This document shows positions 68 to 38,189 of a stretch of DNA of 64,000 nt, piece after piece. Origin of the DNA: Paraburkholderia largidicola. Its GTDB lineage: Bacteria; Pseudomonadota; Gammaproteobacteria; Burkholderiales; Burkholderiaceae. The stretch's first letter is position 1. Every line of letters starts with the position of its first letter. Made by a program: the position numbers and the translations under genes. The stretch covers positions 1,550,001 to 1,614,000 of the forward strand of contig NZ_AP023175.1 of the NCBI RefSeq assembly GCF_013426895.1, written 5' to 3'. The notes below the pieces were generated by a model. That model saw only the letters and a list, made by a program, of their open reading frames with translations. It ran no database searches and had not been told where the DNA came from.

Positions 68-128
68 GCCCGCTTTCAAGACCTGAAACGAAGCGACCTG
101 CCGTGGACGACCTCGGCATGCATGCCCA

Positions 129-151
129 CGTGGCGGGACGACCCGCCCACG
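129..151. other. GC-rich stem-loop upstream of urea carboxylase
   Basis: Arms CGTGGCGGG (129-137) and CCCGCCCACG (142-151) pair around a 4-nt loop with one bulged base. The structure ends 16 bp before the urea carboxylase ATG. No T-run follows, so it is not a classical terminator. It could be a 5'-UTR element or a Rho-assisted end of the upstream gene. Function unknown. Confidence 0.4.
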
Positions 152-23354: not shown

Positions 23355-23476
23355 TTTTTTTGCGCGTGCGGGTGGCTGCGATTTCGTGGCGCGGGCGGTT
23401 CTGGTTTTTTTAGGGCTTGCGCTGGCATCCGCGTTTCGTCTCTGGTTCGCTAGCGTTGCCCCTGTGCGGGGCGGCA

Positions 23477-24021
23477 CCTACTTTTCTTTGCCGCCGCAAA
23501 GAAAAGTAGGCAAAAGAAAGCGGCTAACACCGCTAGCCCGTGTTTCTATCCACGGGTCCCCAACGTCCCCACCCTTCACACCACAGTGCCCCCGTTGGTG
23601 CTCGTTGCCAACGCTTCGAACAAATGCCTCACCCGCTTCAGACACCCTCACAAGAGCAAGCGGCAGCGAACGGCTTGTGCCGCCCAGGTGGCAAACTGTG
23701 TGTAGGTTGTCGCGTCGTATAGCTCGGCGCTCTTACAGGGTGGAACGCGTGTGCTATCGGTCCGAAGTGAGGCGTGTGGAGTACTGCGACCTACACACAG
23801 TTTGCCACCTGGGCGGCGGTGGACTGTCTGGCACAGTGCGCCGCGACGCGGCCGCGTGAAGCGGGTGAGGCGTAGAGAGAGAACGTTGGCAACGAGCGCG
23901 AACAGAAAGGTTGCCGCGTGAAGCGTTGGACCGGTTGGGGGCCCTCAGGCAAACACTAGATCTGGCGGTGTGAGCCGCTTTCTTTTGCCTACTTTTCTTT
24001 GCGGCGGCAAAGAAAAGTAGG
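23477..24021. repeat. large nested palindromic repeat, copy 1
   Basis: 545 bp bounded at each end by the same 34-nt hairpin (arms CCTACTTTTCTTTG and CAAAGAAAAGTAGG): 23477-23510 and, reverse-complemented, 23988-24021. Inside, the two arms are diverged inverted copies of each other. They lead to a perfect 28-bp inverted repeat (23679-23706 and 23790-23817) around an asymmetric 83-bp core. Shared flanks (GTTGCCCCTGTGCGGGGCGG outside each hairpin, then CGCTGGCATCCGCG) carry the similarity out to about 23412 and 24081. It lies between the stops of convergent genes (23354 and 24140). No transposase is encoded. Confidence 0.93.
23679..23817. repeat. inner perfect inverted repeat with core, copy 1
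   Basis: The 28-bp arms begin GCCGCCCAGG and end CTGTGTGTAGG on the left (23679-23706), and are exactly mirrored at 23790-23817. They enclose 83 bp that are not palindromic. In copy 2 the matching arms are 24 bp (37731-37754 and 37847-37870), and the core is present in reverse complement. Confidence 0.9.
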
Positions 24022-24139
24022 TGCCGCCCCGCACAGGGGCAACGCTTGCGAACCAATAACATCACGCGGATGCCAGCGCAGAGGCAAACCGCGAATGCCA
24101 GCGCATACCCCCAAAAACCCAAACCAGCCGCGCAGCGCA

Positions 24140-37257: not shown

Positions 37258-37526
37258 TTTTCGCTGGCATCCGCGGTTTGTTAACGCGCTTCACGCGTCG
37301 CCCCTGTGCGGGGCGGTACCTACGTTTTTGGTTGTCGGCGACGCTGGGTTGTTTGCCCGTGTTTTCGCTGGCATCCGCGATTTGCTTTCGTGCTTTAAGC
37401 GTCGCCCCTGTGCAGGGCGGCACCTACGTTTTTGGTTGTCGGCGACGCTGGGTTGTTTGCCCGTGTTTTCGCTGGCATCCGCGATTTGCTTTCGTGCTTC
37501 AAGCGTTGCCCCTGTGCGGGGCGGCA
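37258..37526. repeat. 104-bp tandem repeat abutting palindromic repeat copy 2
   Basis: Units begin at 37258, 37362 and 37466 with TTTTCGCTGGCATCCGCG. The period is exactly 104 bp for both the start and the downstream CCTAC landmark (37319, 37423, 37527). Each unit holds the outer flank of the palindromic element (CGCCCCTGTGCGGGGCGG-like) followed, in units 1 and 2, by an extra ~35 bp (GTTTTTGGTTGTCGGCGACG and on). Unit 3 runs straight into the element's left hairpin. It looks like tandem expansion of one end of the element. Confidence 0.9.
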
Positions 37527-38072
37527 CCTACTTTTCTTTGCCGCCGCAAAGAAAAGTAGGCAAAAGAAAGCGGCTCACACCGCCAGTGCTAGTTCCTGCC
37601 TGAGAGCCCCCAAAGGTTCTTACGCTTCACACGGCAACCACGTGACCCACGTTCGTTGCCAGCGCGCTTGCGGTGCGCCTCACCCGCTTCACGCTCCCGC
37701 ACTACAGCACGCCGTACCAGCTATTCCACCGCCGCCCAGGTGGCAAACTGTGTGTCGGCCATTCGTGCTGCACACGCCTTACTTCGGACCTGTAACGCAC
37801 GCGTTCCACGCTGTAAGAGCGCCACGCTATACGACGGGACCACCTACACACAGTTTGCCACCTGGGCGGCACAGACCATTCGCTGCCGCTTGCTCAAGTA
37901 CGGGTATTCGAAGCGGGTGAGGCATACATTCGAATCGATGGCAACGAGAACTGGCCAAGGCACTGCCGAGTGAAGCGTGGGGACGTTGGGGGCCCGTGGA
38001 TAGGAACATGGGCTGGCGGTGTGAGCCGCTTTCTTTTGCCTACTTTTCTTTGCGGCGGCAAAGAAAAGTAGG
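37527..38072. repeat. large nested palindromic repeat, copy 2 (inverted relative to copy 1)
   Basis: 546 bp bounded by the same 34-nt hairpins (37527-37560; 38039-38072), with inner 24-bp inverted repeats (37731-37754; 37847-37870). The left arm resembles the reverse complement of copy 1's right arm and vice versa, and the asymmetric core is likewise inverted; so the whole element, not just its core, is in opposite orientation. It lies between the stops of convergent ddpF (37223) and the MFS gene (38190). No protein is convincingly encoded. Confidence 0.93.
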
Positions 38073-38189
38073 TGCCGCCCCGCACAGGGGCAACGCTAGC
38101 GAACCAATAACATCACGCGGACGCCAGCGCAAACACAAGCAAACCAAACACAAAGACAACCCGCCCATGCGCTGCAAGCAAAAAACACT

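Follow-up and report, generated by a model that had tools for sequence, protein, structure and literature searches.

Introduction

Enterobacterial BIMEs and REPs are extragenic sequences of high copy number that lie at gene 3′ ends, between convergent or same-strand genes, and whose hairpins alternate in orientation; a BIME is a mosaic of alternating REPs and short motifs in variable numbers. MITEs have identical terminal inverted repeats, no coding capacity and many copies. In concerted evolution, for example that of rRNA operons, the copies within a genome exchange sequence and orthology is largely lost. The GTAG families of REPs and REPINs, as two papers present them in their main texts, carry GTAG tags, are positioned at gene ends and are associated with RAYT genes (PMC3733652; PMC2817692); Burkholderia is mentioned in neither main text.

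We analyzed a palindromic element that occurs twice in a 64,000-nucleotide stretch of Paraburkholderia largidicola (the window). It resembles BIMEs and REPs in copy number, in extragenic position and in the alternating orientation of its hairpins, but it is ~593 bp long, with a conserved block order and a near-constant length, and no mosaic of REPs and short motifs in variable numbers was seen among 117 intact copies; the term “BIME-like”, used in a preliminary description of this DNA, suits its copy number and position, and not its construction as one long unit. Like the GTAG families it has GTAGG followed by a GC-rich hairpin and lies between convergent or same-strand genes, but its outer hairpin is seldom alone and is not a unit repeated in solitary or small-cluster form, no RAYT gene was seen beside its ends, and the descriptions of those families consulted here contain nothing like its long palindromic interior (PMC3733652; PMC2817692). 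With MITEs it shares terminal inverted repeats, the lack of a conserved ORF and many copies, yet no target duplication was seen, many sites are inherited, and contents are exchanged in place. As in concerted evolution, its copies exchange sequence and have largely lost orthology; unlike rRNA operons, its ~180 non-coding loci stay diverse (83% identity) and near linkage equilibrium rather than being homogenized. On our best reading the element is an unusually large, recombining cousin of the small extragenic palindromes, with BIMEs and GTAG REPs as the closest kinds.

Anatomy of the two window copies

The two palindromic copies first described, at 23477-24021 (545 bp) and 37527-38072 (546 bp), are real, and so are their 34-nt terminal hairpins (15-bp stem, 4-nt loop) and their opposite orientation (83.0% full-length identity when one copy is reversed, against 69.3% as read). 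Other details needed correction. The inner inverted repeat of copy 1 is perfect, as described, but measures 29 bp rather than 28, with 81 nt between its arms; that of copy 2 is present, but instead of a perfect 24 bp we found 28 nt at 96% complementarity, with 84 nt between the arms. The 545/546-bp span holds, but alignment of the 117 intact own copies together with their flanks shows that an outer GC-rich hairpin lengthens the conserved unit at both ends, to about 593 bp (Table 1). The palindromic copies are not a chance pattern: the folding z is -23.9 for copy 1 as RNA and -24.6 for copy 2 as DNA, and genome-wide counts of the element ends (below) agree.

Table 1. Features of the two element copies in the window
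Feature	Position	Strand	Basis or remark
Copy 1, whole element with both outer REP-like hairpins, A arm to B arm, 593 bp	23453..24045	+	
Copy 1, outer REP-like hairpin, terminator-like: GC-rich stem, then ACCTACTTTT	23455..23475	+	terminator scan
Copy 1, left terminal 34-nt hairpin	23477..23510	+	columns 1-40 round to 100% (117 own copies); compensatory changes elsewhere in the genus
Copy 1, A arm	23511..23707	+	
Copy 1, inner inverted repeat, left	23679..23707	+	
Copy 1, asymmetric core	23708..23788	+	
Copy 1, inner inverted repeat, right	23789..23817	+	
Copy 1, B arm	23789..23987	+	
Copy 1, right terminal 34-nt hairpin	23988..24021	+	
Copy 1, second outer REP-like hairpin, terminator-like on the - strand	24023..24043	-	
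Two extra units upstream of copy 2: outer hairpin without element, ~104 bp spacing	37300..37502		
Copy 2, whole element, 594 bp, opposite orientation	37503..38096	-	
Copy 2, terminal hairpin	37527..37560	-	
Copy 2, inner inverted repeat, one arm	37731..37758	-	
Copy 2, inner inverted repeat, other arm	37843..37870	-	
Copy 2, terminal hairpin, other end	38039..38072	-	

Going inward, an end consists of the REP-like hairpin (GCCCC-TGTGC-GGGGC), the 34-nt hairpin and the block GGCAAAAGAAAGCGGCTNACACCGCC; GTAGGTGCCGCCCCGCACAGGGGC, a short palindrome that carries GTAG as a tag on one side, is found at both element ends. The interior consists of A and B arms with common blocks in the same order, the inner inverted repeat (28-29 bp) and a core of ~81-84 bp. 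Because the two arms differ in sequence the element has a polarity, and 116 of the 117 intact copies are of the A-B type; within-copy exchange yielding A-A or B-B elements was considered and rejected, the single case among the 117 being weak. An outer-hairpin pattern (up to two mismatches) has 374 matches in the genome against 357 for the element ends (up to three), so few outer hairpins can be solitary; two such solitary units adjoin copy 2. Tandem units of this kind, starting CGCTGGCATCCGCG, are ~104 bp apart in the window and ~61 bp apart in a relative (left flank of L300), and their number varies among species. Elsewhere in the window, at 99-146 (+), there is a Guanidine-II (mini-ykkC) riboswitch (43.2 bits, gathering score 32).

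Abundance and distribution

The whole-genome search rules out that the genome contains only these two copies. An end pattern allowing up to three mismatches has 178 forward and 179 reverse matches, while the same pattern read backwards, as a control, has 0 and 0, which corresponds to about 178 copies. The pattern occurs in 20 of 34 other genomes of the genus and in none of 24 genomes from other families of the order; four close relatives have 133-185 forward matches each, and four more distant genomes 5-13. An exact match is found in 74 named stretches, every record being titled Paraburkholderia or Burkholderia sp. Full-length relatives (84-87%) come from six large replicons, which belong to P. 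largidicola, P. caribensis and two other Paraburkholderia strains, and partial matches (72-79%) from three further records (P. phymatum, P. terrae). A phage origin was also considered and set aside: copy 1 is unmatched in 50,697 phage records.

The first description recognized no named family, and neither did we: the element has no match in Rfam, and literature searches found no published description, since four of its end sequences match nothing in the text of 5.39 million papers, and no title or abstract opening among the matches listed by word searches describes it, both searches covering subscription journals thinly.

We fetched 133 of the ~178 own copies, 117 of them intact; the 16 others have foreign DNA joined inside a terminal hairpin (12), a missing hairpin, a split core, only half an element, or a diverged sequence (one each). 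From two relatives, genomes G094 and G160, 60 of the 64 pattern matches listed were fetched, and with 6 of these non-intact, 54 intact copies were left. Both samples are biased toward copies with the commoner A-arm sequence.

Conservation of ends and length

Ends and length are strongly conserved. The 117 intact copies span 542-548 bp between hairpin ends (exactly 545 in 54 of them) at a mean pairwise identity of 0.829; conservation rounds to 100% over the outermost 40 columns at the left end and 45 at the right, with a mean of 98.8% over the 20 columns that follow on the left, an end conservation that is partly selected for, since copies were found via their ends and both ends were required for a copy to be called intact. 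In 1500 sampled pairs of own copies we counted a mean of 93 substitutions and 1.7 indel events. The 32 orthologous element pairs (see below) have 2739 substitutions and 59 indels, or 46 substitutions per indel, against 302 and 32, or 9.4 to 1, in ordinary intergenic spacers from the flanks of same-orientation pairs, a comparison set of lower divergence and processed with a different aligner. Relative to substitutions, indels are thus about one-fifth as frequent as in ordinary spacers, and the near-constant length despite divergence that had been reported for two copies is real. A coding function was rejected: none of the six frames stays open across the copies (the longest stretch without a stop codon has a median of 65-88 codons, depending on the frame, with single copies reaching 155-181), and 3-base periodicity of conservation is absent.

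In other species the same ~66-bp ends enclose different interiors of different lengths: mostly 471-474 bp, but also 456 and 410, in P. silviterrae, 455-456 bp in P. tagetis, 513-722 bp in P. haematera and 420-598 bp in P. fungorum. These interiors are palindromic as well; with 68 bp trimmed per end, and with 6 of 51 elements omitted for undetermined bases, 44 of 45 have z > 5 against shuffled arms and the remaining one has 4.2. The interior of the present family is unalignable to 12 other representatives (at most 0.05 score per base), whereas its own two arms align with each other (0.30). Over the 13 representatives, the two arms are nearer each other than to any other representative in five, equally near in one and less near in seven (e.g., P. 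silviterrae and P. tagetis), which indicates that the palindrome has probably been rebuilt with new sequence in some lineages, and that an inherited palindrome would be enough in others. In P. bryophila, a 758-bp element (L110) has a further long inverted repeat nested within it.

Fixed sites and exchanged contents

Many copies occupy inherited sites: of the 54 intact copies from the G160 and G094 samples, 32 share their site with one of the 117 own copies (flank identity 91-96%), where about two thirds is the highest shared fraction to be expected because only 117 of the ~178 own copies were available. The contents of these sites are exchanged. Element identity at shared sites is 0.843, compared with 0.829 (G160) and 0.822 (G094) for all between-genome pairs, and the true ortholog ranks, at the median, 44th among 117 in similarity. 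The exchange is not complete, as 6 of the 32 orthologs rank 1-5; in seven 60-column windows along the element, the ortholog is in the top six 1-7 times of 32, against an expectation of 1.6. Linkage disequilibrium (r2) is 0.18 at <5 bp, 0.03 at 40-79 bp, 0.014 at 80-159 bp and 0.011 beyond, and is therefore near background past ~80 bp.

Conversion tracts were read by comparing this genome with the near-identical P. largidicola and strain 22B1P. The difference is confined to one stretch in L274/L277, takes in the first 350 bp and the adjoining flank in L272/L365, and covers almost the entire element in L275/L291; L273/L281 gives a mixed pattern, L275/L295 is unchanged, and L271/L289, L274/L278 and L271/L290 are nearly unchanged. 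A chain comparison of C1 site positions with G076 matched 30 of 72, but random positions gave up to 21 matches, and we do not rely on it.

At some sites the element is inverted in place, in counts for which the P. caribensis strains are not mutually independent. Inversion was found at 4 of the 32 shared G160/G094 sites, all of them convergent (4/18 convergent, 0/14 same-strand). The copy-2 site is inverted in both relatives and the copy-1 site in neither. On the chromid of P. caribensis and PGU19, the element is inverted at L283, L284, L285, L288, L294, L296 and L357, but not at L287, L292, L358, L361 and L363, nor, more weakly, at L279 and L280; L359 is ambiguous (0.800/0.784) and L282, L293 and L362 are unscorable. 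The L296 inversion is at a same-strand site (L274), contrary to the convergent-only pattern in G160 and G094. In the two near-identical genomes, orientation is unchanged at all eight scored loci.

Empty sites, insertions and mobility

Among the best 29 other loci for the gene at copy 1, the element is present in G094 and G160, G138 carries a 72% relative, and no element is seen there in the other 26; among the best 29 for the gene at copy 2, the element is again in G094 and G160, G076 and G137 have an end with other DNA, and 25 have nothing, counts in which one locus per site is partial and less similar loci may be different sites. In P. phymatum the element is absent at two sites, with an apparent decayed end at a third. 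Of the target-site duplications and empty sites proposed as a check, empty sites therefore exist, but no target duplication is readable, the flanks having been rebuilt by other repeats. At the copy-1 site of G137 a small perfect palindrome stands in place of the element, as expected from deletion between repeats or from an older state.

The element had been proposed to be a non-autonomous mobile element; current mobility is not shown, and many sites are common to relatives. In its fuller form, as a MITE-like element whose ends are recognized by a transposase encoded elsewhere while the interiors ride between them, this explanation accounts for the same ~66-bp ends around interiors of different length, for a copy number that depends strongly on the clade (133-185 versus 5-13 forward matches) and for the empty outgroup sites. 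We nevertheless consider it unlikely, because the few empty sites read show no target-site duplication, because nine loci of the two near-identical genomes, read at five chromid sites, all carry the element, and because no autonomous copy was met in passing, the single internal transposase seen resembling an inserted IS. In addition, the genome has two matches to the Y1-transposase family PF01797 (one above the curated cut-off and one just below), and within ~1.5 kb on each side of them there is no element end, barring one weak 13-nt match; over that distance no RAYT gene flanked by element ends was seen.

The element itself receives other DNA. In 8 of the 16 non-intact own copies (L144, L147, L173, L182, L200, L241, L246 and L276), and also in L298 of G076, DNA starting TGTACAGACTGGAGACA, of which there are two sequence variants, is joined at the same spot in the terminal-hairpin loop (position 15 or 531); it looks like an insertion sequence, perhaps one with a hairpin-loop target. 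At the base of this hairpin (position 32 or 514) other DNA is inserted; L175, L187 and L199 share its end sequence, and L151 has a different one. In L214 (2019-3384), a 425-aa transposase-like ORF, which we take to be IS256-like, splits one element in its core. The right end of L146 has lost the terminal hairpin and retained the outer one, as expected from a deletion across the hairpin.

Tests of the folded structure

The suggestion that it is the fold which is conserved finds no support as it was put, since the long stem lacks covariation within the family: among the 117 copies, long-stem pairs are formed in 0.945 of cells, against 0.943 expected if the two sides were independent, and at the 45 variable pairs in 0.834 against 0.824. 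Hairpin stability follows from the presence of the inverted repeat. There is no strand-specific wobble signal: of 101 pairs, one-sided changes give wobble at 36 for one strand and at 36 for the other, which favors neither as the RNA. Interior columns that are paired are more conserved (0.917) than unpaired ones (0.746), which fits conserved blocks as much as pairing.

The terminal hairpins behave differently in other species, where changes on both sides are seen at stem pairs 1, 2, 4 and 8 (4 of 15 pairs) and one-sided changes at pairs 2, 3 and 7, based on 125 hairpins read on both strands (250 readings) with species relatedness left uncorrected. In the outer hairpin, GCCCC/GGGGC becomes CCCCC/GGGGG in several species, and the one-sided ACCCC/GGGGC also occurs. 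Comparative evidence of this kind supports a probable structure for the terminal hairpins only, and indirectly through the palindromic interiors of elements with other interior sequence.

These results bear on the proposal of a structured RNA, in which the transcribed hairpin of one strand would be the functional molecule. The extreme folding stability (z -23.9), the location at gene 3′ ends, an orientation bias at same-strand sites (36:11, below) and the higher conservation of paired interior columns would suit such an RNA; the long stem without covariation, the wobble pairs balanced between strands (36:36) and the lack of an Rfam match on the element make it, in our view, highly improbable.

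Position relative to genes

The element is extragenic, lies downstream of genes and avoids divergent spacers. With gene contexts from a home-made caller, which missed annotated genes in 2 of 4 check loci, the 117 intact copies comprise 67 at convergent, 47 at same-strand and 3 at divergent positions, compared with 5, 75 and 28 for 108 other gaps in the same flanks; the 54 intact copies of the two relatives comprise 27, 26 and 1. No predicted gene spans an element, according to an earlier version of the caller and with ORFs mostly inside the element set aside. At the 47 same-strand sites the arm that points toward the upstream gene is B in 36 cases and A in 11 (P = 0.0003); the relatives, partly at the same sites, gave 17 versus 9 (P = 0.17), and the bias needs confirmation.

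Another possibility is that a nucleoid or recombination protein uses the element as its DNA site and binds the paired blocks in both arms, inversion and exchange being part of the site's role. Consistent with this are the shared blocks and block order of the two arms, wobble without strand asymmetry, A-B polarity retained in 116 of 117 copies, scarce indels and inversion in place. However, no protein is known to bind it, and the scarcity of copies between divergent genes suggests a link with transcription and not with chromosome structure, which leaves a protein site a distinctly doubtful candidate.

Terminator-like hairpins are found around copy 1, seven in all against 1.4 (sd 1.3) in shuffles, a count of consensus matches in one copy only. 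The T-run of copy 1 begins 6 nt after the outer stem rather than directly after it, so terminator strength is uncertain.

Discussion

We favor, with a probability of about 0.55, a reading in which the element is a 593-bp composite REP/BIME-like extragenic palindrome with a 3′-end function, likely that of a two-way terminator/insulator, and with contents exchanged by intragenomic recombination. Its original spread, near the base of the clade, would presumably have been brought about by a transposase or recombinase recognizing the ends. Exchange between sites would then proceed by homologous recombination (gene conversion), which the nearly identical sequence of up to ~80 bp at both ends would aid while also letting whole elements invert. 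A function at gene 3′ ends would preserve ends, length and position; it would most likely be that of a two-way terminator/insulator made of stacked terminal hairpins, such that RNA polymerase arriving from either side would meet terminator-like hairpins, and mRNA 3′ ends might also be protected. Two results do not follow from this reading: the same-strand bias of 36:11 is not expected from a symmetric terminator, and a terminator that works through the ends leaves the conservation of the interior unaccounted for.

More tentatively, and at clearly less than even odds, the ~180 loci may be viewed as a recombining sequence population within a single genome, with fixed addresses, near-invariant ends, and contents that can be swapped and inverted and are near linkage equilibrium. 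Long-term selection would then act on palindromic form and length, the interior being rebuilt from new sequence between unchanged ends in at least some Paraburkholderia lineages, while the sequence turns over.

The element family makes up ~1% of the 9.5-Mb genome (178 x 593 bp). Because its ends recur almost unchanged at hundreds of places, they may cause rearrangement and misassembly, and they appear to be a target of insertion sequences. Its ~180 comparable loci allow gene-conversion and inversion events to be counted as they occur in nature, so that rates of intragenomic recombination are directly measurable in a bacterium; and it poses the question of why length, ends and palindromic form persist while the intervening sequence does not.
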